A DNA stretch of 33,787 bases from Chloroflexota bacterium (lineage in GTDB: Bacteria; Chloroflexota; Ktedonobacteria; Ktedonobacterales; Ktedonobacteraceae), in assembly GCA_005881495.1 (NCBI GenBank), contig VBHI01000206.1, positions 1 through 33,787 on the forward strand. Direction: 5' to 3'. Of this stretch, positions 10,194 through 33,787 are shown piece by piece. The notes below the pieces were generated by a model. It was not told the DNA's origin, did not search any database, and saw only the letters and a program-made list of their open reading frames with translations. A program made the position numbers and the translations under genes. Each line of letters starts with the position of its first letter. Within the stretch, counting starts at the first letter, position 1.

Positions 10194-10586
10194 AGGAGGA
10201 GACTTCCATGTTGCCGTCACGGTATGGGCCTATTTCAACTTCCTGCCCAAATGCACACTGACGATTCCTTCGGTAACTACGTGATTGACCAGGAGATCCT
10301 GGAAATAATTATTCAACCTCATGAAAATGACCTCCCTCTTGCTGGATTAGTTTGTACTTTGCCCTCAAATTGAGCACAAACTGATCCTGATAACATTACT
10401 GGAACGCTCAAGCTGCTGTTTGAAGGTCAGTTCAGGTTTTTTATTTTCGATGAGCCTCCATAACAATGATGAGAAGTCTCTCATATCTTTCCAACGAAAA
10501 CCCAATGACCTCACTGTAATATTGGGCTTAAAAGGGAAACAGTCTCTTGAATAACAATACACGACAAACATAGAGGAGAAATAGAT
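10194..10586. other. Gap between M48 peptidase and glycosyltransferase
   Basis: AGGAGG at 10196-10201 precedes an ATG at 10208 that opens only a 17-codon frame. In another frame an ATG at 10224 opens 49 codons (separate entry). The remainder (10374-10586) is AT-rich with no recognised gene; the promoter of the glycosyltransferase should be here. Confidence 0.3.
10224..10373 (+). CDS. Possible small ORF or gene remnant (49 aa)
   Basis: The frame begins MGLFQLPAQMHTDDSFGNYV and continues with an acidic stretch (IDQEILEIIIQPHENDLPLA) before TGA. The composition is protein-like, but there is no ribosome binding site at its own ATG; the good AGGAGG upstream serves an overlapping +1 frame. A frameshifted small gene is one explanation. 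No family recognised. Confidence 0.22.
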   Translation: MGLFQLPAQMHTDDSFGNYVIDQEILEIIIQPHENDLPLAGLVCTLPSN

Positions 10587-17729: not shown

Positions 17730-18118
17730 AATCTTACTCCTTTTTATCTTAACAAACAACATTCCTAATATCGAATAGGCCCTTGCTTCTATGAGCCCCA
17801 TCCATTCCTCAAAGACGGGAGGCTCCTCCTAGGGGTCAATACCAGTGTAGCGGATCGGTCTCACACGGTCATCACGTGCAGGTGCCTGGGCAGCACAAAC
17901 CTGTCACAATCTTCACACGGCATAAGCGCCATTGTGACGGTCCTGTAAGAGTAAGGTGCCCAACCGTGATAGCTTTGTGATCTGAGCCTTTTATATTTCT
18001 AAACAGTGAGTTGTCTTCATTACCTGGTGGCTCTTTCTTCCAGGTTGTTGGTATCGTTGCAAATGTTGTATAGTAGGTTCGTTACCCATCGTTTCACGAC
18101 TAGTTCAAGGAGAACACT
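17730..18118. promoter_or_regulatory. Divergent control region of the phasin-like and thiolase genes
   Basis: A 389-base gap. GTCACAAT (17903-17910) and ATTGTGAC (17931-17938) form an 8-bp inverted repeat with a 20-base spacer. From 17930 to the thiolase start the sequence is a diverged copy of 31671-31864 upstream of paaK, sharing blocks such as CATTGTGACGG, CGTGATAGC, TTGTGATCTGA and GTTACCCAT. Conservation of these blocks in two copies suggests binding sites. Confidence 0.5.
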
Positions 18119-18160
18119 ATGCCAGAGGTGTATATTATTGACGGGGCAAGAACCCCGGTC
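17930..18160 (+). repeat. Direct repeat copy A: thiolase control region and first codons
   Basis: Pairs with 31671-31910. Around the start codon I count 14 differences in 78 bases (82% identity); upstream blocks align with a few small indels. Start-to-block distances are 189 and 194 bases. See the paaK locus. Confidence 0.75.
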
Positions 18161-19303
18161 GGGACCTTACAAGGTTCCCTTTCCGATGTTAGCGCTATTG
18201 AGCTGGGCGTCATTGCCGCTCAAGGCGCTATCCAGCGCAGCGCCGTGGACCCGCAACTGATCGATTTCGTCGTCCTTGGCAATGTCATTCAGTCAAGTAA
18301 AGATGCCATTTATTTACCGCGACATGTCGCGCTCAAGGCCGGCGTACCCGTCGATATTCCAGCCCTGGGGGTCAACCGCTTGTGTGGTTCCGGCTTGCAA
18401 GCGATTGTGAGCGCGGCACAGGCGCTCAAGCTGGGGGAAGGACAGATTGCCCTGGCTGGCGGGAGCGAGAACATGACGCAGTCCCCCCATGTGCTGCGGG
18501 GCGCTCGCTCCGGCTATAAATTCGGCCAAGCCCCCCAGCTCGAGGATAGCTTGTGGGAGGCGCTCATTGACACCTACACCGGCTGCGGCATGGCGATTAC
18601 GGCTGAGAATCTGGCGGAGAAGTACGCGTTGAGCCGCGAAGTGGTCGACGCCTATGCCCTCCGCAGCCAGCAAGCCGCGCGCCGGGCACAACAAGCGGGA
18701 TGGTTGGCCGAAGAGATCGTGCCGGTCACGATCAAGGACCGCAAGGGCAACCCGGTCGAGTTTCAGCAGGATGAGGGGATCCGCGACACCTCGATGGAGT
18801 CCTTAGCCAGGCTCCCGGCGCGGTTCCGCAAGGGCGGGGTCGTGACGCCGGGGAATGCCAGTGGCATCAATGACGCGGGCGCGTGTGTCATTCTCGCCAC
18901 CGCCGAGGCCGTGCAGCAACATCACTTGAGGCCCCTGGCCCGACTCGTTTCCTGGGGGGTGGCCGGGGTCCCGCCGGAGATCATGGGCATTGGACCGGCC
19001 CCGGCTATCCGCCAGGCGCTCAAACGGGCCGATCTGACCGTAGAGGAGATGGACCGGGTGGAGGTCAACGAGGCCTTCTCTTCGCAGTACCTGGCGGTGG
19101 AGAAGGAATTGGGCTTGAACCGCGACAAGACGAACGTGAATGGGGGCGGGATTTCGATCGGCCATCCCCTGGCGGCCAGTGGTGCGCGACTGACCATTAC
19201 GCTGATGTATGAGCTGCGGCGCCAGCAGCTGAAGTACGGCGTTGCCTCGCTGTGCATCGGTGGCGGACAGGGCATTGCTGCGGTCCTCGAGAATGTCGCT
19301 TAA
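18119..19303 (+). CDS. Thiolase (acetyl-CoA C-acyltransferase/acetyltransferase)
   Basis: A 394-aa thiolase of normal length with all catalytic residues: nucleophile Cys89 in NRLCGSGLQA, NEAF at 317-320, His349 in [10 protein letters not shown] and Cys379 in CIGGGQG. It condenses two acetyl-CoA (first step of PHA or acetoacetate synthesis) or cleaves 3-ketoacyl-CoA; the sequence does not decide between biosynthetic and PaaJ/FadA-like roles. AAGGAG precedes the ATG. After the stop, CTGAGGAGGG looks like a ribosome binding site with no gene behind it, as if a downstream partner had been lost. Its control region and 3' end are duplicated around paaK at 31.7-33.5 kb. Confidence 0.93.
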   Translation: MPEVYIIDGARTPVGTLQGSLSDVSAIELGVIAAQGAIQRSAVDPQLIDFVVLGNVIQSSKDAIYLPRHVALKAGVPVDIPALGVNRLCGSGLQAIVSAAQALKLGEGQIALAGGSENMTQSPHVLRGARSGYKFGQAPQLEDSLWEALIDTYTGCGMAITAENLAEKYALSREVVDAYALRSQQAARRAQQAGWLAEEIVPVTIKDRKGNPVEFQQDEGIRDTSMESLARLPARFRKGGVVTPGNASGINDAGACVILATAEAVQQHHLRPLARLVSWGVAGVPPEIMGIGPAPAIRQALKRADLTVEEMDRVEVNEAFSSQYLAVEKELGLNRDKTNVNGGGISIGHPLAASGARLTITLMYELRRQQLKYGVASLCIGGGQGIAAVLENVA

Positions 19304-19320
19304 GCTGAGGAGGGTAGCGT
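19113..19320 (+). repeat. Direct repeat copy A: thiolase 3' end
   Basis: Pairs with 33323-33530 at a constant offset of 14,210 with no indels. I count 6 differences in 208 bases (97% identity). The match begins abruptly at GCTTGAACCGCG and ends ~17 bases after the stop codon. Confidence 0.95.
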
Positions 19321-19559: not shown

Positions 19560-19720
19560 ATCCCTGAAACCTCCCCGGCCTAAAGGCACGGAGGTTCTTG
19601 TTCATCGTCCAACGCTTCCAACCGACCTCTCCGGTAGAGAGAGATTGGCTCTTGTCGGAGACTCCCAAGACTTTTTGGCCGACGCGCTCTGGCTCCGGAG
19701 ATGCCGAAGCTTCGAGGCAA
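19560..19720 (-). ncRNA. Probable omega (right-end) RNA of the tnpB element
   Basis: In tnpB elements the guide RNA overlaps the 3' end of the gene and ends at the element's right boundary. Here AACCTCC (19568-19574) pairs with GGAGGTT (19590-19596), with GCC/GGC and a TAAA loop inside; the tnpB stop codon (19580-19582) lies in this hairpin. A further stem-rich stretch with CCGGTAGAGAG lies at ~19626-19645. The sequence after the hairpin on the minus strand, from about 19560 downward, would be the guide. The 5' end is a guess. Confidence 0.45.
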
Positions 19721-21199
19721 GGACTGCCCCTCTTTCGCACGTTGTTGTACATGCTCCATTGCGGCCACCAGGCGCGGTTCCGCACCTTCCCACTCTTTCA
19801 GGGCAATGGAGGGAATAGTTTCTGCTGCTTGCAGATGGGCCAGCAAAAAGGCCGAGTACAGGTCACGCTGCACCGGGCCAATGCCGCAAGCACAGTGATG
19901 CCAGCGCTCGGAGAGCGGCTTTTTCACGTAGCGCTTGCAGCCATGGCAGTACTGCGACAGTTTGGTTGTCCGTGTGGGAACTTCATGCAGGGTGCCGCCG
20001 GTCCTTGCAACCGTGCGTTTCAGCCTGTCTACAAACATCCCTGGGGCGTGCAGTCCCACACTTTTCCCATACTGCTTTTGCCACGCTTTGTACGAGACTT
20101 TTTCGAGGTGAATGGTGTTGCCCTCACGCACGATCTCGTTGGCGAGCCGACCATGCAGACTTTGGCGATGGGCAGCCAACTTGCGTTCTTGATGAGCGAG
20201 ACGGCGTCGGGTGGCCAGGTACCCTCGACTGTCTTTCCACATGAGGCGCTGATGGCCATGCTTCTTGATACGTCCTTGCGTATCGTAGTTGGCTGGATTG
20301 GTGGCCCGACGCTGTCGATCGAGCTTGCGCGCTAAGCGGCGCCTGGTGCGTGCATCGGCTCGCAGTTCTTCGCCCAAGGGGACCAACCGGGCAGGACCCT
20401 GCCGTGGCACGCTAGCAAGGCTCGCCGGACCCAGATCCAGCCCGATCACGTCCGTCCCTCCCGCGTTCCTGGGTTTCTGATAGGGCTTGCCTTCTAAGAC
20501 CAATTGTACCGCATAACGAAAACCCTGGCTATCGGCCCCTTTGGCTTGCGGACTGGAGGCCTTGCGTCGGATGAGCCGTGCATACTTGATGCGATGCTCC
20601 AGGCCGTATTTTACGACGGGGTCGTTCCAGTCAATGATGGCTGGGAGGCGGTCATCGCCCCACACCAGACAGCCGGCGTTGCCTTCTTGGGGAGCTTGCA
20701 GGACAAAGCGCAGCCCGGTATCATTGCGCTTGTTCTCCACACTATCCAAGCCGCGCCCTGTACTTTTGAAGCGCACCTTCTTGGCTTGCCCCACGCACAC
20801 GCGATTGACAGCGTGATAGGCGCGGCTGGCCAGTGTTTGGGCCAGCACCGAGTCGATGTGATCGGCGATCCAGCGGCAATTGGCCTCTTTGGCGAAGTCA
20901 TGCAGGGCAAACTCCGAGAACCCGGAGGTCTTGCGCAGTTGAGAGAAGGCGGCGTGACGCTCGTGTTTGCGCGAGCGTGGGATAGCACTGGCGGCTTGCC
21001 AGGCCGGGTCGGTCCGCATGCGACGTAAACGCTTGGTGGCTTCCCCAAGCAACGCATTGTAGAGGCAGCGGGCGGCTTCCAAATGGGCACGCAGGCGTTT
21101 GGCCTGCCCGGCATCGACAGCTAAGGGCAGTTCCAGCAGAAAGGTCGTCGTCTGGCTCTTTTTCACCTCGCGTCTCGTCCTTTGAATGTTTGTTCGCAT
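19580..21199 (-). CDS. tnpB: RNA-guided nuclease TnpB (IS605 OrfB family)
   Basis: 539 aa from the ATG at 21199 (MRTNIQRTRREVKK); the frame is open to 21274 but that start touches the end hairpin. The N-terminal helical domain is followed by the split RuvC nuclease with every acidic residue present: VIGLDLGPASLA (Asp, RuvC I), TIHLEKVSYKAW (Glu, RuvC II) and GPVQRDLYSAFLLAH (Asp, RuvC III). Between II and III the zinc ribbon has CHGC and CAC-type cysteine pairs (YCHGCKRYVKK, RWHHCACG). The protein therefore looks nuclease-competent. TnpB proteins use an omega RNA from the element end to cut DNA next to a short motif. The C-terminal tail of ~90 residues is Arg-rich and partly overlaps the omega RNA region. 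Confidence 0.88.
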   Translation of the reverse strand: MRTNIQRTRREVKKSQTTTFLLELPLAVDAGQAKRLRAHLEAARCLYNALLGEATKRLRRMRTDPAWQAASAIPRSRKHERHAAFSQLRKTSGFSEFALHDFAKEANCRWIADHIDSVLAQTLASRAYHAVNRVCVGQAKKVRFKSTGRGLDSVENKRNDTGLRFVLQAPQEGNAGCLVWGDDRLPAIIDWNDPVVKYGLEHRIKYARLIRRKASSPQAKGADSQGFRYAVQLVLEGKPYQKPRNAGGTDVIGLDLGPASLASVPRQGPARLVPLGEELRADARTRRRLARKLDRQRRATNPANYDTQGRIKKHGHQRLMWKDSRGYLATRRRLAHQERKLAAHRQSLHGRLANEIVREGNTIHLEKVSYKAWQKQYGKSVGLHAPGMFVDRLKRTVARTGGTLHEVPTRTTKLSQYCHGCKRYVKKPLSERWHHCACGIGPVQRDLYSAFLLAHLQAAETIPSIALKEWEGAEPRLVAAMEHVQQRAKEGQSLPRSFGISGARARRPKSLGSLRQEPISLYRRGRLEALDDEQEPPCL

Positions 21200-21344
21200 T
21201 CTAGCAGAGGGGGCTTGTTCTGTCAATCCCGCGTATTCCCCCACCGCACAAACCTCCAGATAAGGAAGAGCCATTCATCCCCCGCATAAATTTATGACGG
21301 GGGCTGTCTGGCTCGTTTGCAGTAAGGAGTTGTCTTACCCCTTC

Positions 21345-24267: not shown

Positions 24268-24319
24268 TTAATTGTCCTGGATGCTCCTCGGTACCCTACG
24301 ATCAGAAACGAGGTTTTCA

Positions 24320-25264
24320 ATGTTATTACAAGAGAATGAAGCAGAACGCACTGAACGCTTCTTTGACTCTGTCAAAAACGGTGGCAAGGTTGAGGCGACA
24401 GATTGGATGCCTGATGCCTACCGCCAGTCGCTTATTCGCTTCATTGAAATGCATGCAAACTCCGAATTGATGGGCGTTTTGCCGGAACGCGACTGGATCA
24501 TGCGTGCACCCACTATCCAGCGCAAACTTGCGCTCACGGCGAAAATCCAGGACGAAGCCGGGCATGCCGAATTGCTCTATCGCCTGGTTGAAGACCTGGG
24601 CAAACCACGCAGCGCCTGCATTGAAGATCTGATTGCGGGAAAAGGCAAATTCCATAATGCATTCCATTACCGCACCAAATCCTGGGCCGATACTGGCATC
24701 ATCGCCTGGCTCGTGGATGCTGCGGCCATTGTCTCACAACACGCTCTGCGTGATAGCAGTTATGCCCCTTATGCCAGGACGATGCAAAAGATCTGCTGGG
24801 AAGAATCGTTCCACATGATGTATGGTCGCGATGCTGTGATTACGATGATGAATGGTACCCCTCGACAACGCGAGATGGCGCAAGAGGCACTCAATCGCTG
24901 GTGGCCGGTGCTGATGGTCTTCCATGGACCCAACACTCCCGCTGAAAAAGATAGAGACCTGCAATGGCGCATTAAGTCCAAGACGAACGAGGAACTACGC
25001 CAGGAGTTTTTGGACACCCAGGTGCCCCGGCTGCGCGAAATCGGCCTGGTGATCCCCGACCCTGAGTTGCGTTACGATGCGGAAAAGGGCCGTTGGGTTT
25101 ACAGCGAGCCGAACTGGGATGAACTTCGCGCTGTTGTACGCAATCAGGGCCCCGCCACGGCAGAGCGGGTCGGCTTCCGCCGCATGACCTACGAAGAAGG
25201 TCAGTGGGTGCGCGACCTCATGCTTTATCGCCGTTCAGCCTCCAGGTCAGTGAGCGTTGCCTGA
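24320..25264 (+). CDS. paaA: Phenylacetyl-CoA 1,2-epoxidase catalytic subunit PaaA
   Basis: A 314-aa diiron protein; 24320 is chosen over the upstream ATG at 24272 because ACGAGG precedes it and PaaA similarity begins at once. Iron ligands appear in HANSELMG (Glu49), QDEAGH (Glu79, His82) and CWEESFH (Glu162/His165). DWIMRAPTIQRKLALTAKIQ and KSWADTGIIAWLVDAAAI are PaaA-like. With PaaC and PaaB it epoxidises the ring of phenylacetyl-CoA using O2. It is the first gene of a paaA-B-C-D operon under TetR-type operators. Confidence 0.95.
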   Translation: MLLQENEAERTERFFDSVKNGGKVEATDWMPDAYRQSLIRFIEMHANSELMGVLPERDWIMRAPTIQRKLALTAKIQDEAGHAELLYRLVEDLGKPRSACIEDLIAGKGKFHNAFHYRTKSWADTGIIAWLVDAAAIVSQHALRDSSYAPYARTMQKICWEESFHMMYGRDAVITMMNGTPRQREMAQEALNRWWPVLMVFHGPNTPAEKDRDLQWRIKSKTNEELRQEFLDTQVPRLREIGLVIPDPELRYDAEKGRWVYSEPNWDELRAVVRNQGPATAERVGFRRMTYEEGQWVRDLMLYRRSASRSVSVA

Positions 25265-25283
25265 GCCAGCAAGGAGTACTGAT

Positions 25284-25892
25284 ATGTCAAACCTCGTGGA
25301 ACTCGCCCCTGGAGCCGCTGTGAGCAGTGATGCGGATGGGGAGGTCTTTGAAGTCTTTCAGCAGGATCGAAGAGATTCTTTTCCGCACCACGGCGGCAAT
25401 CTGCGTGCGCCTGATAACGAACTGGCCATTCACTATGCCAGGGAGTTTTATGGGCGGCGACAGGAAAGTCAGAAGCTCTGGATTATTCCTCGCGCAGCCT
25501 TGTGGGAAATACGTGACACCAGGCAGCTCCCTGCTATCTTGCATGCCCTTGCTAGAGGAGATACAACACCTGAGGAATACAGCCAGACCCGCGGGACCTT
25601 TGCCATATTCGGACAGAAGCAGGACGGGAAGCCTTTTGTGTGGCTGCAAGACCTGGAGCAGGTGAACCTGCTTGAGGCCGCAGAGGCAGCGGTGGGGCTT
25701 GCTCATCTTCGTGAAGAAGGCTACCTCAGGCTCTGGCTCTGCCCACGCAGCGCCATCAGTGAACTCACCGATCCGGATCTCCTACAGCCGCCATTCGACC
25801 GCTCCTACCGTCGCTTGGATGGCTACAACATTCGCGAAAAACTGCGCATTGCACGCCAGCGTGTGCAAGATGCGGGAGGGAAGCTGCTATGA
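25284..25892 (+). CDS. paaB: PaaB-like subunit, tandem-duplicated (double PaaB)
   Basis: A 202-aa protein, about twice the usual ~95-aa PaaB. The start at 25284 has AAGGAG eight bases upstream. Unit 1 (~21-77) is a clear PaaB domain: FEVFQQDRRDSFPHHGGNL, RAPDNELAIHYAREFYGRRQ and LWIIPRAALWEI. Unit 2 (~105-161) repeats it with little sequence identity: FAIFGQKQDGKPFVWLQDLE, LLEAAEAAVGLAHLREEG and LWLCPRSAISEL. The two FxxF...LW(I/L)xPR(A/S)A frames are separated by 84 residues. PaaB bridges PaaAC units in the epoxidase, so a fused pair could change assembly. The C-terminus overlaps the paaC start by 4 bases. Confidence 0.85.
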   Translation: MSNLVELAPGAAVSSDADGEVFEVFQQDRRDSFPHHGGNLRAPDNELAIHYAREFYGRRQESQKLWIIPRAALWEIRDTRQLPAILHALARGDTTPEEYSQTRGTFAIFGQKQDGKPFVWLQDLEQVNLLEAAEAAVGLAHLREEGYLRLWLCPRSAISELTDPDLLQPPFDRSYRRLDGYNIREKLRIARQRVQDAGGKLL

Positions 25893-26719
25893 GTGAAATT
25901 GCCGGCTCTCAGGCTGTTGCTCCAGACCTCAAACGGCCTCTTATAGACTTTTTACTGGCTCTGGCTGACGACGAGTTCGTGCTCGGCTACTGGGACTCCG
26001 AGTGGACCGGCGTGGCGCCGATACTTGAGGAAGATGTTGCAAGCAGTTCTATTGCTCAAGATGAGATTGGTCACGCTCGTCTCTTCTACCAGGAAGTTGC
26101 CACTTTGACGGGAATGTCTCTCGACCGGATCGCCTATGGACGCAAGCCGGAGGAATACCGCCAGGTGCAGCTGGTCGATCATCGTCGTGGTGATTGGGCC
26201 TTTACCATTGCCCGTCAATTTCTCTATCATATCGCCGATCAGCTTCGTCTGGAGCATCTCAGCACCTCAACGTATCTGCCCATAGCCCAGGCGGTAGCCA
26301 AGATCCAACGAGAGGAAGTCTATCACCAGATGCATGTCCATGCCTGGCTTGAACGGCTGGCCGAGAGCACTCCCGAGGCGCGTCAACGCCTGGAGCAAGC
26401 TCTTGAATGTTTATGGCCTGATGCCCTGGGCATGTTTGAGCCATTTCCGGATGAAGAACTTCTGCTGCGCGCAGGTATTCTTACGCTCGCCTCTGCGTCC
26501 TTGCAACAGGAGTGGCTAGCAGCAATCGCTCCAGTTTTTGAGCGATTACAGCTACCTTTTCCCGTATCACGCATGGAGTCTCCCACAGGTGCTCCAAAGT
26601 ATCAACCGGTGATCGCGCCACGCCTGGGTGGACGTCGTGGACAGCATACGCCCGACTTTGTTGGCTTGTGGGAAGAGATGACGATGGTGTATCGCGTGGA
26701 ACCACAGGCAAGTTGGTAG
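25889..26719 (+). CDS. paaC: Phenylacetyl-CoA epoxidase structural subunit PaaC
   Basis: A 276-aa ferritin-like protein, slightly longer than E. coli PaaC (~248). ATGA overlap with the paaB stop indicates translational coupling. It has FLLALADDEFVLGYWDSEWT, LEEDVASSSIAQDEIGHARL (Glu59, His62) and KIQREEVYHQMHVHAWLERL, the latter matching the second helix-pair region. PaaC partners PaaA as a non-catalytic subunit. The last ~25 residues (LGGRRGQHTPDFVGLWEEM) recall the PaaC C-terminus. Confidence 0.93.
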   Translation: MSEIAGSQAVAPDLKRPLIDFLLALADDEFVLGYWDSEWTGVAPILEEDVASSSIAQDEIGHARLFYQEVATLTGMSLDRIAYGRKPEEYRQVQLVDHRRGDWAFTIARQFLYHIADQLRLEHLSTSTYLPIAQAVAKIQREEVYHQMHVHAWLERLAESTPEARQRLEQALECLWPDALGMFEPFPDEELLLRAGILTLASASLQQEWLAAIAPVFERLQLPFPVSRMESPTGAPKYQPVIAPRLGGRRGQHTPDFVGLWEEMTMVYRVEPQASW

Positions 26720-26744
26720 CATTACGCACAGAAAGAAAAAGAGC

Positions 26745-27263
26745 ATGTCCAAATTGATAGCTGAATCTTCACATCCAGCGCTTGACGAACAGCGGGTTTG
26801 GGATACACTCAGCAATGTTCCCGATCCTGAACTGCCAGTCATCTCCGTGGTCGATATGGGAATTGTGCAACACATCCGGGTTGACGCTGCACGCTCTTAT
26901 ATTCATGTGGATATCACCCCTACGTTTGCTGGCTGCCCGGCTATTTCCCAGATTCGCGCCGAAATCCGTAATCGCCTGTTACAACTAGCTTCGACGGTGG
27001 AAGTCGATGTCACGGTGCAGCCCTGGACGAGTGATCTGCTGAAAGAAGAGGCACGGGAGAAACTGCGCAGAGTGGGCATTGCTCCTCCACCCAGAATCGG
27101 TCGAGGACGCGCTGTGCCCATGCTTATGAACCAGCCCTTAACCTGTCCCCACTGCGGTTCACAGCAGACGACACTTGAAAATACCTTTGGCCCAACGCCC
27201 TGTCGAGCTATTGCCTATTGTGCTCAATGTCACCAACCTTTTGAACAGTTTAAGCCGCTATGA
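26745..27263 (+). CDS. paaD: PaaD (MIP18/DUF59 family, Fe-S maturation for the epoxidase system)
   Basis: 172 aa. The MIP18 domain covers residues ~12-105: LSNVPDPELPVISVVDMGIV and TPTFAGCPAISQI with Cys64. After a Pro-rich linker comes a zinc-ribbon-like C-terminus with CPHC (134-137), Cys153 and CAQC (159-162), typical for PaaD. PaaD is thought to help iron-sulfur or metal assembly for the PaaE reductase, but no PaaE is present in this window. It lies 25 bases downstream of paaC; the next gene starts 28 bases after its stop. Confidence 0.92.
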   Translation: MSKLIAESSHPALDEQRVWDTLSNVPDPELPVISVVDMGIVQHIRVDAARSYIHVDITPTFAGCPAISQIRAEIRNRLLQLASTVEVDVTVQPWTSDLLKEEAREKLRRVGIAPPPRIGRGRAVPMLMNQPLTCPHCGSQQTTLENTFGPTPCRAIAYCAQCHQPFEQFKPL

Positions 27264-28310: not shown

Positions 28311-30323
28311 ATGGAATCTTCCCTTGAAGAGAGGGTGCTCCTCTGGGAGCCTTCAGAGAAGTTGAAGCAGCAAGCGAATATCACACGCTACATGAAGTGG
28401 CTTGAAAATGAGAAAGGACTGAGCTTCCGCTCTCCTGAAGAGTTATGGGCATGGTCGGTCAACTATCTCGAAGATTTTTGGGCCTCGCTCTGGGAATACT
28501 ACCATGTTAAGGCCTCGAAGCCATATACGACAGTGCTGGAAGAACGCAAGATGCCTGGCGCAAAATGGTTCGTCGGCGCTGAACTGAATTACACTGAGCA
28601 GGTCTTTCGGCACATGGCTACGGACCATCCGGCTCTGCTTTTCCAATCGGAGCGGCAACCCTTGACCGAGGTCACATGGGAGGAGTTACGCCGCAAGGTC
28701 GGCCTGATAGCCAATGCGCTCCGTGCGATGGGCGTGCAACGCGGCGATAGAGTCGTCTCCTATATGCCAAACATTCCAGAAACGGTGATCGCGTTTCTGG
28801 CCACGGCCAGCCTCGGGGCCACCTGGTCGAGTTGCTCGCCGGACTTTGGCAGCAGTAGCGTGATCGATCGCTTCAAACAGATTGAGCCAAAGGTGCTCTT
28901 TGTTGTGGATGGCTACCAGTATAACGGCAACAGCTTCGACAGACGCCCGATCATCGCCGAGCTGCAAGGGCATCTGCCCACCCTGCAAAAGACGGTACTG
29001 CTGCCCTATTTATCGCAAGACACGACGACAGAGGGACTCACAAATGCTGTGTTGTGGCAAGAATTGCTCCAGGGAAGCTCGGAGTTAACGTTCGAGCAGG
29101 TGCCCTTCGATCATCCTCTGTGGGTGCTCTATTCCTCGGGCACGACTGGCTTACCGAAGGCTATCGTTCAAGGTCAAGGCGGCATCGTGCTGGAACATCT
29201 CAAAAGTCTCGACCTGGGTCTGGATCTGAAACTGGACGACCGCTTCTTCTGGTATACCACAACCGGTTGGATGATGTGGAACTTTGTCGTCGGTGGGTTG
29301 CTGGTCGGCTGCACGATCCTCCTCTACGATGGGAGCCCTGCTTACCCAGATATGGGCAGAGTCTGGCAATTTGCCCAGGATAGTGGGATGACGTTCTTCG
29401 GCACCAGCGCTGGATATCTCACTTCGTGTATGAAGGCGGGAATCGAACCAGGGCAGACCTATAACCTGAGCAGGCTCAGAGCGATTGGCTCGACGGGCTC
29501 TCCTTTGCCACCAGAGGGCTTCCACTGGGTCTACGAACACCTCAAGAAAGACGTGTGGCTCGTTTCCGCCAGTGGCGGCACGGATGTCTGCACACCTTTC
29601 GTGGGCGGCTGTGTGCTGCTACCCGTCTATTCCAGCGAAATTCAGTGCCGCGCGCTAGGGGTAAAGGTGGAAGCCTTTGATGAACAAGGTAAGCCGGTTG
29701 TTGATGAGGTAGGAGAACTCGTCATTAGCTCACCTATGCCCTCGATGCCCCTGTTCTTCTGGAATGATCCTGAGGGCAAACGCTATCAGGAGAGCTACTT
29801 CGAAATGTATCCGGGGGTGTGGCGACACGGGGACTGGATCAAGATTACGCCCACGGGCAGCGCCATTATCACTGGGCGATCGGACTCCACGATTAACCGG
29901 ATGGGAGTCAGAATGGGGAGCAGTGAGATCTACCGAGTCGTAGAGGCGCTTCCAGAGGTGCTGGATAGCCTGGTTGTGGGCGTCGAGCAACCAGGTGGGA
30001 AATACTACATGCCACTCTTCATAGTGCTTCGGGATGGTGCCGAATTGGACGACGCGCTCAAGAAGAAGATCAAAGATAGCATCCGCAATAACCTCTCCCC
30101 CCATCACGTGCCAGATGAGATCCTTGCCATCAAGGAAGTGCCTCGTACCCTGAATGGCAAAAAGACCGAGGTCCCCGTGAAGAAACTCTTTATGGGAGTG
30201 CCGGTGGAGAAAGCAGTCAGCCGGGACGCGTTAGCAAGTCCGCAAGCCATCGAATTTTTCGTCGACTACGTTCAGCAGGCGCGTGCCGCAGGGAAGGTGA
30301 GCAGTTCCGTCGACAGGAGCTGA
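28311..30323 (+). CDS. Acetoacetyl-CoA synthetase (acetoacetate-CoA ligase)
   Basis: A 670-aa ANL-family ligase, family-typical length. N-terminal MKWLENEKGLSF, WAWSVNYLEDFWASLWEYYHVK and MPGAKWFVGAELNYTEQVFR are diagnostic of AACS versus acetyl-CoA synthetase. Core: YSSGTTGLPKAIVQGQGG (A3), TTTGWMMWNFVVGGLL, SASGGTDVC (A5), RHGDWIKIT (A7), GRSDSTINRMGVRMGSSE (A8) and catalytic Lys in LNGKKTEVPVKK (A10). It activates acetoacetate to acetoacetyl-CoA, which thiolase can split to acetyl-CoA or which can feed polyhydroxybutyrate. GGAGGAG precedes the start. Confidence 0.92.
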   Translation: MESSLEERVLLWEPSEKLKQQANITRYMKWLENEKGLSFRSPEELWAWSVNYLEDFWASLWEYYHVKASKPYTTVLEERKMPGAKWFVGAELNYTEQVFRHMATDHPALLFQSERQPLTEVTWEELRRKVGLIANALRAMGVQRGDRVVSYMPNIPETVIAFLATASLGATWSSCSPDFGSSSVIDRFKQIEPKVLFVVDGYQYNGNSFDRRPIIAELQGHLPTLQKTVLLPYLSQDTTTEGLTNAVLWQELLQGSSELTFEQVPFDHPLWVLYSSGTTGLPKAIVQGQGGIVLEHLKSLDLGLDLKLDDRFFWYTTTGWMMWNFVVGGLLVGCTILLYDGSPAYPDMGRVWQFAQDSGMTFFGTSAGYLTSCMKAGIEPGQTYNLSRLRAIGSTGSPLPPEGFHWVYEHLKKDVWLVSASGGTDVCTPFVGGCVLLPVYSSEIQCRALGVKVEAFDEQGKPVVDEVGELVISSPMPSMPLFFWNDPEGKRYQESYFEMYPGVWRHGDWIKITPTGSAIITGRSDSTINRMGVRMGSSEIYRVVEALPEVLDSLVVGVEQPGGKYYMPLFIVLRDGAELDDALKKKIKDSIRNNLSPHHVPDEILAIKEVPRTLNGKKTEVPVKKLFMGVPVEKAVSRDALASPQAIEFFVDYVQQARAAGKVSSSVDRS

Positions 30324-30375
30324 TGCCCCTATCGACCGCAAGAGTCGCCAGGATAATTCGCGGGCCTGGGGCATC
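30322..30375. terminator. Inverted repeat between convergent AACS and S41 peptidase genes
   Basis: GATGCCCC (30322-30329), overlapping the AACS stop codon, pairs with GGGGCATC (30368-30375) across a 38-base loop. A bidirectional terminator is possible but weak. Confidence 0.3.
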
Positions 30376-30426
30376 GTGGGGGATCACCTCATCAAATTCA
30401 CCTTTGCGTTTGCATATCCAGGCCTC

Positions 30427-31443
30427 TCACGCCTCATGATTCGCCCTTTCCAACCTAGCAAGAGTCTCCTGTAATTCTTGCACAAAGAATTCCTGCGCTT
30501 GAGTTGGCATATCACCAATGTCCTCAAGTACCTTCTTGAGCGCCATGACATGGGCTACTTTCAGCGCTTCCTCCTGTAGCACCTCAATATCTGGTATCAC
30601 TCCCGTTCCTTCCCAGTTCGATCCTGTGATCGGATTGATGGCACGCCCTGTTGGTATGAAGATCGTGAAATGAGCGTTGATTGTGTATATATCTCCTGGA
30701 TGAGCACCGCCACCGGTAATTTCACCGATGATGGTAGCACGTTTCAGACTCTTGAGGTTGTAAGTAAACTCTTCTGCCCCTGAAAACGTCTCGTGGCTTG
30801 TCAGGACATAGACGGGCTTATTGAGGTAACGCCTGCCAGGAACATAAGGTAACGTCCAGAATTGCTGAGTTCTATTGCTTGCACGCCAGTAGATGCTATT
30901 GAGGTGGACTGGCTCTGAATCGAAGAAGTAGCTGCACATTAAAGCGACCAATGCAGGTTCACCACCGTGATTTTTACGCAGGTCGATTATAAGTGCAGTT
31001 GTGTTGGCAAGAAAGTTCAGTGCGGCAATAGCAACTTCCCCGGCAAGTTCGACAGGGTAGAAGGCGCGAAAATCGAGGTAGCCGATGTTACCAGGCAAAC
31101 GTTCCACTTTCTCAAAACCATAGTTTTTGAGAAGCCAAAGCGAATTCCTGTATGTTTCGGAAGGTGTTGCAACGTCCTTCTTCGCAGGCTCCTGAGCAGA
31201 ACTGTAAAATACCTGGAGGTGCTTATCTTTACTGATCTCTTGCAGATGTACAGTAAGGGTTTCAGCGAAGGCTTCCCCTGTGGTAATGTCATTGTATTCG
31301 CCACCGCTCAGTCGTCGACGCATGGACTCTTCCATCTCTTCTGCGGCATTGGGAAAAACATAGTTTTCGCGTAGTTTGCTGAGCAGAATTTCAATTATCT
31401 CTGAGCGTGTGGTGGCGTCAAGCAAGGTATTGGCAATATCCAT
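30427..31443 (-). CDS. S41 family (IRBP/tail-specific-protease-like) serine peptidase
   Basis: 338 aa from the ATG at 31443, six bases after AAGGAG; the frame is open to 31494. The N-terminal helical bundle (IEILLSKLRENYVFPNAAEEM) is the IRBP-type domain, then a beta domain with NIGYLDFRAF, ALIIDLRKNHGGEPALV and the nucleophile in TSHETFSGAEEF (Ser221), followed by TGGGAHPGDI. No PDZ domain and no signal peptide, so probably cytoplasmic, as are the IRBP-like bacterial members whose substrates are unknown. It is convergent with AACS and divergent from the paaK locus; no functional link to the pathway is evident. Confidence 0.85.
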   Translation of the reverse strand: MDIANTLLDATTRSEIIEILLSKLRENYVFPNAAEEMEESMRRRLSGGEYNDITTGEAFAETLTVHLQEISKDKHLQVFYSSAQEPAKKDVATPSETYRNSLWLLKNYGFEKVERLPGNIGYLDFRAFYPVELAGEVAIAALNFLANTTALIIDLRKNHGGEPALVALMCSYFFDSEPVHLNSIYWRASNRTQQFWTLPYVPGRRYLNKPVYVLTSHETFSGAEEFTYNLKSLKRATIIGEITGGGAHPGDIYTINAHFTIFIPTGRAINPITGSNWEGTGVIPDIEVLQEEALKVAHVMALKKVLEDIGDMPTQAQEFFVQELQETLARLERANHEA

Positions 31444-31864
31444 CTCTGTCTCCTTCTTTTCTGACATGTGCAAGTTTGCAGTTATGTCATGCATAAGACA
31501 AGCACTCCTTAATTAATAGTATCATGCCTTCAGGCTTTAAGATCAGCCCAAGCCTATAAATCCTCTTTTAGCCTGGCTTTCTTGCTGTGTTTCAAGGTAT
31601 AGTATATTTCAAAAAAAATCGGTCAGAGGGCCGTCATGTCTAAGGGAGAGGTGGAAGGTGAGGAAGGTGACATTGTGACGGTTTTGTAAGAGAAAGGCGA
31701 CCAACGTGATAGCATTGTGATCTGAACTCTCTATACTTCAATACAGATGAGTTGTCCACGTCAGTTGGTGGCACTTGCTGCCAGAATGCAGATAGTTGTC
31801 TTCGGCAAAAGTTGTACAGCGGGTTTGTTACCCATTGTTTCACCACTAGTTAGAGGAGGACGTT
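31444..31864. promoter_or_regulatory. Control region of the paaK locus (thiolase-derived)
   Basis: 421 bases without a normal gene. The first ~220 are AT-rich and should hold the S41 promoter. From 31671 onward the sequence is a diverged copy of the thiolase control region (17930-18118), sharing the blocks CATTGTGACGG, TAAGAG, CGTGATAGC, TTGTGATCTGA, GTTACCCAT, GTTTCAC and ACTAGTT. paaK is therefore expressed from a control region that matches that of the thiolase gene. Confidence 0.6.
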
Positions 31865-31910
31865 ATGCCAGAAGTGTATATTGTTGACGGGACATGGACC
31901 CCTGTCGGCG
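31671..31910 (+). repeat. Direct repeat copy B: thiolase control region and first codons
   Basis: Partner of 17930-18160; about 80% identity around the start codon, lower upstream. Confidence 0.75.
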
Positions 31911-31933
31911 TATTATTCGGCATATTACAATGA
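31865..31933 (+). pseudogene. Thiolase 5' remnant acting as a 22-codon leader ORF for paaK
   Basis: After AGAGGAGGA, an ATG opens MPEVYIVDGTWTPVG, matching the intact thiolase start MPEVYIIDGARTPVG, and then diverges (VLFGILQ) to a TGA at 31931-31933. The Arg of the thiolase ART motif is Trp. The stop is 12 bases before the paaK ATG, and GGGAGG of paaK overlaps the end, so translation of the leader could couple to paaK. Confidence 0.75.
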
Positions 31934-31945
31934 GGGAGGTTTCTT

Positions 31946-33316
31946 ATGGCATGGAACGAGCAAGTCGCCAAGCGCGACTATATGCCTACTGAGGAACGGC
32001 GTGCTCTGCAGTTCGAGCGTCTGCAGGCAACGGTCCACCGTGTGTATGAGCATGTGCCTTTCTACCATAAAGCACTGAATGATCAGGATATCGAGCCGAC
32101 GGCGGTAAGAAGCCTGGACGATCTCACTCGACTTCCCTTCACCACACGGCATGATCTACTCGATAATTACCCCCTGGGTCTCCTGGCGGTGCCCAGGGAA
32201 CAAGTGATTCGGATCCATGCTTCATCGGGCACCAAGGGCAAGCCCAAGATTGTCGCCTATACCCGGAATGATATTGATATCTGGGGTGAGGTCGTTGCCC
32301 GAGCGCTCGTATGTGCGGGCGTGCACCCCGGTGAGGTTGTCCACAACGCCTACGGCTATGGCCTGTTTACCGGTGGGTTGGGCGTGCATTACGGCTGTGA
32401 GTACCTGGGCGCAACGGTAGTCCCGATTTCCAGCGGCAACACCCAGCGCCAGATCATGCTCCTGCATGACCTGCAGGCGACCACGCTCACCTGTACGCCT
32501 TCTTATGCCTTGACTATTGCCGAAACCCTGACCAATATGGGGCTGGGACCGGATGACCTGTGCCTGAAACGCGGCATCTTTGGGGCTGAGCCCTGGACGG
32601 AAGGATTACGCTCCCAGGTTGAAAAGGGCCTGGGCATCCAGGCCCTGGACATTTACGGGTTGAGTGAGGTCATGGGACCGGGTGTGGCGATGGAATGCGC
32701 CGAGGAGGGGCAAATCAGCGAGGGAGGAACGCGCACTCTGCATGTCTTTGAAGACCACTTCCTCCCCGAAATCGTTGATCCCGATACCGGCGAGCCGCTT
32801 CCCTATGGGCAGGAGGGTGAGCTTGTTTTCACCGGCATCACCAAGGAGGCGTTGCCTCTGCTGCGCTACCGAACTGGCGATCTCTGTACCTTGATCCCGG
32901 ATCGTTGCGTCTGTGGACGCACCCTGGTTCGCATGAGCCAGATTAAAGCACGCGTGGATGATATGCTCATTATCCGAGGGGTCAATGTCTTTCCTAGCGA
33001 GATCGAGCGCGTGCTGTTGGGTATATTCGAACTGGCACCTTACTATCAGGTCATACTGGATTACAAGCTGACGTTAGATGAAGCCACGGTGGAAACTGAA
33101 GTAACCAGGGAATTTCAGGAGCAGCTAGGCGGGGCTGTGCTCACCAGTGACGCCGACGGATGGACGGCCCACGAGCAGGTAATGGGGCTCCAGCACAAGA
33201 TAGGTACAGCCTTATATGAAGCATTGGGCCTGCGACTGAACGTGCGTGTGTCCAGTCCTGGCACCTTGCCTCGTAGTGAGGGAAAGGCAGTTCACGTTGT
33301 AGACCGACGTCGATAA
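31946..33316 (+). CDS. paaK: Phenylacetate-CoA ligase
   Basis: A 456-aa ANL ligase that converts phenylacetate, ATP and CoA to phenylacetyl-CoA, the substrate of PaaABC. Motifs: the N-terminal half with [13 protein letters not shown] and [21 protein letters not shown]-loop SSGTKGKPK at 93-101 (canonical SSGTTGKPT, here Lys97 and Lys101); [10 protein letters not shown] (A5); RYRTGDLC (A7); and [17 protein letters not shown] (A8), typical of PaaK. The C-terminal domain has normal length. GGGAGG lies before the ATG. It sits in the interior of a thiolase pseudogene whose 5' and 3' pieces flank it. Confidence 0.95.
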
Positions 33317-33318
33317 AA

Positions 33319-33513
33319 GTGTGCTTGAACCGCGACAAGACGAACGTGAATGGGGGCGGGATTTCGATCGGCCATCCCCTGGCGGCCAGTGGCGCGCGTC
33401 TGACCATTACGCTGATGTATGAGCTACGGCGCCAGCAGCTGAAGTACGGCGTCGCCTCGTTGTGCATCGGTGGCGGACAGGGCATTGCTGCGGTCCTCGA
33501 GAATGTCGCTTAA
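33319..33513 (+). pseudogene. Thiolase C-terminal remnant
   Basis: Sixty-four codons equal to residues ~333-394 of the 18.1 kb thiolase, including [13 protein letters not shown] (His349) and [14 protein letters not shown] (Cys379) but lacking Cys89 and the whole N-terminal fold. It begins seven bases after the paaK stop. Not functional alone. The match at DNA level is 33323-33530. Confidence 0.92.
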
Positions 33514-33530
33514 GCTGAGGAGGGAAGCGT
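33323..33530 (+). repeat. Direct repeat copy B: thiolase 3' end
   Basis: Partner of 19113-19320: 6 differences in 208 bases, no indels, ending abruptly on both sides. Confidence 0.95.
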
Positions 33531-33584
33531 CGAGCGAAAGAGATAGGAACACCCTCTCCAAAACTGAACCCTGGTTTCAGCTTG

Positions 33585-33603
33585 GGATGTGGTGATTACA
33601 TCC
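33585..33603. promoter_or_regulatory. Short hairpin upstream of the last gene
   Basis: GGATGT (33585-33590) pairs with ACATCC (33598-33603); the following AAGGAG is the ribosome binding site of the next gene. A weak CTGAA/TTCAG pair lies just before. Role unknown. Confidence 0.25.
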
Positions 33604-33618
33604 AAGGAGTTAACCACT

Positions 33619-33787
33619 ATGAATGAAAAAGCATCGAACGGAGCGCAAATTGTAGAGTCCTGGGTCGACCTGGCTGATACTACGACAGCTGGCTATCCTA
33701 CCGGACCCATCGTAGAGGCCCTCGCCCAGGCCCAGCACGGCCCCAAGGAGGATCCCTGGGTCACCCTCATCGACCGGCTCTGGGATG
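33619..33787 (+). CDS. N-terminal part of an unidentified protein, cut by the window end
   Basis: AAGGAG lies nine bases before the ATG. The 56 visible residues begin MNEKASNGAQIVESWVDLAD and include PTGPIVEALAQAQHGPKEDP and VTLIDRLWD at the edge. The composition is that of a soluble protein, with hydrophobic/Trp spacing that could fit a helical protein of the phasin or PHA-synthase-subunit kind, but this is too short to assign. Confidence 0.6.
   Translation, partial: MNEKASNGAQIVESWVDLADTTTAGYPTGPIVEALAQAQHGPKEDPWVTLIDRLWD

Follow-up and report, generated by a model that had tools for sequence, protein, structure and literature searches.

Thiolase gene relics around a paaK-like ligase gene in a Ktedonobacteraceae contig: a possible case of promoter capture

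Introduction

How does a complete paaK-like gene come to stand between two pieces of a thiolase gene? The question is raised by a contig of a Chloroflexota bacterium of the family Ktedonobacteraceae (VBHI01000206.1), analysed here as one stretch of 33,787 nucleotides, which is called the window below. It carries a phenylacetate-type cluster encoding PaaA, PaaB, PaaC, a PaaD-like protein, an acetoacetate--CoA ligase and a paaK-like ligase, and also an intact thiolase gene, thl1. An earlier note on this DNA proposed that recombination had replaced the interior of a second thiolase gene, here thl2, with paaK. We re-examined the locus against 47 genomes of the class and against database proteins.

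Results

The intact thiolase (18119..19303, forward strand) belongs to the acetyl-CoA C-acyltransferase family (TIGR01930, 437.7 bits against a cut-off of 240.55, residues 6-391 of 394) and follows a leader, or control region, at 17930..18118 on the same strand. It is accompanied by a phasin-like gene, an acyl-CoA dehydrogenase and electron-transfer flavoproteins. A TnpB-like gene (19580-21274, 564 residues; NF040570, 95 bits, cut-off 100) separates the 3' end of thl1 from a gene that, below cut-off, was best matched in NCBIfam by a phenylacetaldehyde dehydrogenase.

The paaK-like gene (31946..33316, forward strand) encodes a ligase whose best match among 18 families was TIGR02155 at 555.9 bits, under the NCBI curated cut-off of 646.3; it is therefore called paaK-like, and its substrate is putative. 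Its AMP-binding (PF00501, 62.7 bits) and AMP-binding_C_2 (PF14535, 73.7 bits) domains both scored over their cut-offs, and close relatives are named phenylacetate-CoA ligase by several sources. There are 26 database relatives at 65% identity or more, near ones being P0001 (97%) and P0008 (80%), and the four that carry an organism name come from Ktedonobacteraceae or Dictyobacter. The phenylacetyl-CoA epoxidase genes lie at 24272-27263 on the same strand as the paaK-like gene; PaaA and PaaC passed the cut-offs of TIGR02156 and TIGR02158, and PaaB and the PaaD-type protein were recognized by Pfam domains. The acetoacetate--CoA ligase gene (28311..30323, forward strand; TIGR01217, 880 bits, cut-off 520.9) is separated from the upstream relic by an S41-family peptidase gene on the reverse strand (30427..31494), which found no match in the relatives' stretches scanned with it.

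Both flanks of paaK derive from a thiolase gene. Upstream, 31671-31908 aligned with 17930-18162 at 185 of 232 bases (79.7%; blastn E = 5e-47 over 239 columns). This copy consists of a thiolase leader (31671..31864, forward strand), with a GAGGAGG ribosome-binding sequence at 31853-31859 and 147 of 188 aligned non-coding bases in common with the thl1 leader (the sum of five blocks), and of a relic of thiolase codons 1-22 plus a stop (31865..31933, forward strand), in which the GART motif has become GTWT. At the protein level the relic reaches codon 22, past the end of the DNA alignment (MPEVYIVDGTWTPVGVLFGILQ*), and ends with TGA at 31931-31933, 12 bases 5' of the paaK start. Downstream, paaK stops before the thiolase tail, which comprises the 3' end of thl2 and 17 bases past its stop (33317..33530, forward strand; stop at 33511-33513) and matches 19107-19320 at 206 of 214 bases; from 33323 to 33530 the identity is 202 of 208 (97%; blastn E = 1e-99). 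A chance match of either flank is ruled out by these E-values, which came from searches restricted to 30324-33787 and lie far beyond chance. The locus is a well-preserved genomic relic of a thiolase around paaK.

These alignments bear out the earlier note's reading of the region before paaK as a diverged thiolase control region with first codons, and of the 208 bases after it as a near-identical copy of a thiolase 3' end. Its complete paaK with a ribosome-binding site of its own was likewise found: the gene encodes 456 residues, and AGGGAGG at 31933..31939 (forward strand) overlaps the relic stop codon by one base. Its figure of about 990 missing thiolase bases came out lower, at about 930-945 (18185-19112 of thl1, or 18163-19106 by DNA alignment alone).

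The tail is still open in frame, forming a 64-residue ORF (33319-33513) from a GTG two bases past the paaK stop, and might yet be translated through coupling. Homology between thl1 and the tail stops at 19320, 17 bases past the thl1 stop, beyond which unrelated DNA and the TnpB-like gene follow thl1. Movement mediated by TnpB was considered and set aside, as on a plain reading the likely ends of that gene seem not to coincide with the 19320 breakpoint. The tail is followed by the start of gene X (33619..33787, forward strand), cut by the window end.

Thiolases at E <= 1e-100 were found in 24 of the 47 class genomes, the best match (85%) being in genome G213. Its contig C439, of 6,980 bases, carries a ligase (74%), a paaK remnant, the end of the leader, a complete thiolase (the 85% match) and a start of X similar to that in the window; the first gene of the contig encodes a putative keto-acid cleavage enzyme. 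The paaK remnant covers residues 367-431 in two frames, a pseudogene broken at both ends. Before the thiolase stands TGTTTCACCACTAG, which by eye agrees at 14 of 14 positions with the window's upstream copy and at 12 of 14 with the thl1 leader. When 17850-18180 served as a DNA query, one of the 47 genomes, G213, gave a match, confined to the final stretch of the leader and the first codons (query 242-331 of 331); the remaining leader part is absent before the G213 thiolase. Gene X in G213 (locus L136, about 2544-1700, minus strand) meets an early stop after the common start; a later stretch in another frame resembles the same protein by eye, with no significant Pfam match.

Because G213 has an intact thiolase between the paaK remnant and X, an intact thiolase very probably once stood at this place in the window as well. 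The two lineages mirror each other: paaK has decayed next to an intact thiolase in that of G213, and the thiolase next to an intact paaK in that of the window. PaaA was found at E <= 1e-20 in 31 of the 47 genomes (four at about 80% identity, the others at most 41%), with none in G213, and the paaK-type matches elsewhere in G213 were, among the matches listed, 35% and 28% identical; both are in keeping with loss of the pathway, although the G213 assembly is small (3.2 Mb) and fragmented.

Other comparisons yielded less. The order of paaK remnant, leader end, thiolase and X start was seen in one relative, G213, among the matches listed, and G213 has deletions of its own. The thl1 side gave nine matches in G213, the longest outside C439 lying in an acyl-CoA dehydrogenase where a contig ends, and a second ligase contig of G213 offered little of use. 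Genes like paaK at E <= 1e-150 occurred in three of the 47 class genomes, and in the 20 kb paaK neighbourhoods of G322, G329 and G335 paaK was the sole match among 23 window proteins. The paaK relative in G329 (locus L103, about 10357-10378) is split in two frames and looks broken or misassembled. Among the viral contigs searched there were two loci at 45% and 44% only, and among 323 plasmid records all matches were below 60%.

Discussion

The order in G213 bears first on whether the arrangement is real. Two thiolase tails nearly identical over 214 bases are a likely place for a misjoin, and the earlier note had itself allowed for a chimera at 33323. The tail, however, has substitutions of its own (six in 208), and it runs into X much as in the independent G213 assembly. 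The thiolase-to-X side, to which this agreement applies, is thus not an assembly chimera; the agreement does not extend to the junction of paaK with the tail. There, at 33317, no repeat common to the paaK end and the thiolase was seen, so repeat collapse would not readily create the junction, and the upstream relic, being 20% diverged, is not a misplaced copy of thl1. We consider a misjoined window very improbable.

It bears equally on the replaced interior of the earlier note. A second thiolase before X, and paaK directly behind a thiolase-derived leader, both stand. A single insertion of paaK is not supported, since the G213 remnant lies upstream of the thiolase leader; with paaK upstream of the thiolase and not inside it, replacement is not the best history. 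A precise exchange that kept paaK whole together with its ribosome-binding site would also need a donor, and none is known here.

We prefer, tentatively and at somewhat short of even confidence, a tandem duplication amounting to promoter capture, followed by deletion of the thiolase front. The ancestor would have had the order acetoacetate--CoA ligase, paaK, leader, thl2 and X, resembling G213 in outline. A tandem duplication would have joined codon 22 of thl2 to the bases just 5' of the paaK ribosome-binding site, so that a duplicate of the thiolase leader came to precede paaK; the upstream paaK copy would then have been lost, the S41 peptidase gene coming to occupy its place. A deletion starting a few bases past the paaK stop would have taken away the second leader together with the opening 330 or so codons of thl2, so that its tail stayed in front of X, while the complete thl1, 14 kb away, could cover the lost thiolase function. 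No significant trace of a first paaK copy was found in 30324-31670 (best tblastn E 0.24, best non-self blastn E 0.36). Duplication and deletion would account for the layout without bringing paaK from elsewhere and offer a better explanation than replacement, which would arrive at an identical arrangement but with paaK supplied from outside.

The two flanks seem to differ in age. From 33323 on, the tail differs from thl1 at five coding positions, a small number, and every change is synonymous by the codon table, where random changes in the tail would be 27-32% synonymous; this suggests that the tail belonged to a gene working until recently. The differences at the junction edge (33319 and 33322) are both non-synonymous, and these bases may not be thiolase sequence at all. 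Of the three sites polarised by G213, the change fell in thl1 at two and in the tail at one, and the two tails are equally distant from G213 (145 and 146 of 191). The upstream piece, with seven non-synonymous and five synonymous codon differences from thl1 over its 22 codons, and without the A and R of a GAR motif kept in 19 of 19 related thiolase loci, looks older. Over these 22 codons it matches thl1 and G213 alike at 44 of 66 bases, and over the first 15 it matches thl1 at 38 of 45 and G213 at 35 of 45. Taken alone, the divergence of relic and tail would indicate an old front and a young tail.

Such a contrast would also be expected if the flanks came, at separate times, from two copies of the thiolase: a partial duplicate of old date in front of paaK and, behind it, a neighbour truncated only recently, neither being tied to paaK by a duplication. 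Over its first 15 codons the relic departs from thl1 at seven of 45 bases, compared with five of 191 for the 3' end (Fisher P = 0.002; taking 10 of 48 gives 6e-5, and 19 of 63 gives 5e-9), and the intact thiolase after the paaK remnant in G213 fits as well. The same difference can, however, be explained by gene conversion, and the origin of the upstream piece is left unaccounted for. We hold this history to be doubtful, slightly less probable than the replacement discussed above.

Gene conversion between paralogues is a general process, and the tail, 97% identical to a distant copy where the front is 80% identical, resembles its outcome. The mosaic itself was seen in a database protein, P0123, a thiolase of 95% identity, and not in the paaK locus. 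Parents and breakpoint were picked after looking. With P0139 taken as the second parent, the 15 differing sites as far as residue 139 side with P0139 in 13 cases, with thl1 in none and with neither in two, whereas all 22 sites after residue 139 follow thl1. When P0135 or P0137 served as second parent, the counts were nine against five with four following neither up to residue 139, and 0 against 22 and 0 against 23 past it. P0123 looks like a sharply divided mosaic of two groups of paralogues, the switch falling somewhere between residues 139 and 170. A coarser comparison, of N-terminal identity with that of the remaining protein among 120 relatives, gave it the second-lowest residual (-2.7 sd; P0150, -3.3). 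Its cluster contains 15 sequences, and P0123 may itself be a product of chimeric assembly.

P0123 suggests that the two kinds of thiolase may exchange sequence. Gene conversion between paralogues can therefore explain the 80% and 97% identities of the relic pieces, and can mimic a recent date for the tail. We rejected the contrast in identity as proof of two separate events on account of the P0123 mosaic, and for the same reason make no claim that the two pieces had different owners. They need not be the ends of one gene; gene conversion keeps that possible. One recombination exchanging the thl2 interior for paaK would leave the flanks as two ends of a single gutted gene, its 5' end only seeming older because the 3' part had been overwritten from thl1 beforehand. 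P0123 is a mosaic of just this kind, and residue 16 of the relic is V, as in 79 of 120 database relatives including P0123, against T in thl1. Given the position of paaK in G213, we nevertheless regard replacement as unlikely.

Under the preferred duplication and deletion, the paaK mRNA would now begin in the thiolase-derived leader, and control of paaK by this leader is plausible from its position; it might then couple the ligase to acyl-CoA metabolism, as the earlier note proposed. A ribosome ending the 22-codon relic ORF at its TGA would stop on the paaK ribosome-binding site, an anatomy that is directly observed and would give coupled translation; the relic codons may act as a leader ORF. 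A scan of 31400-33787 for promoter motifs gave three promoter-like sites against a shuffle mean of 1.6, none within the leader proper (31671-31864), and the thl1 leader had no standard promoter match either, so the organism may use other signals. The Rfam search of the window returned no structured RNA at gathering score, and folding of 31840-31990 was no better than shuffles (z -0.43). A further reading is that the relic has been kept as a working regulatory device, in which the leader and a translated 22-codon peptide, ending on the paaK ribosome-binding site, would put phenylacetate activation under the signal that governs thiolase/PHB or acetoacetate metabolism, G213 having lost paaK and the window's lineage, conversely, the thiolase; we consider this rather improbable.

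In bacteria, deletions and tandem duplications are established routes to promoter capture, one account citing an Escherichia coli citrate transporter and Salmonella histidine cases (PMC11111574). As there, a local junction has put a gene behind its neighbour's control region and first codons: in the window, donor leader and first codons are joined 5' of a complete recipient gene. Unlike those cases, the paaK locus is known from sequence relics alone, the event looks old, and the donor thiolase was later cut as well. Deletion-born fusions (PMC12803068) similarly join pieces of separate genes by deletion, whereas the paaK locus yields no fused protein. No paper screened by its title and the opening of its abstract dealt with such a paaK/thiolase arrangement.

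Conclusions

Although clear, the case seems an ordinary one: a gene has apparently acquired its neighbour's control region by local rearrangement, a known kind of event. It is a clear natural fossil, probably of promoter capture, that can be read against a relative with an intact thiolase, and it illustrates that dates read from such relics can be misleading when paralogues undergo gene conversion. Should the captured leader be active, activation of aromatic acids in this bacterium would be linked to thiolase control.
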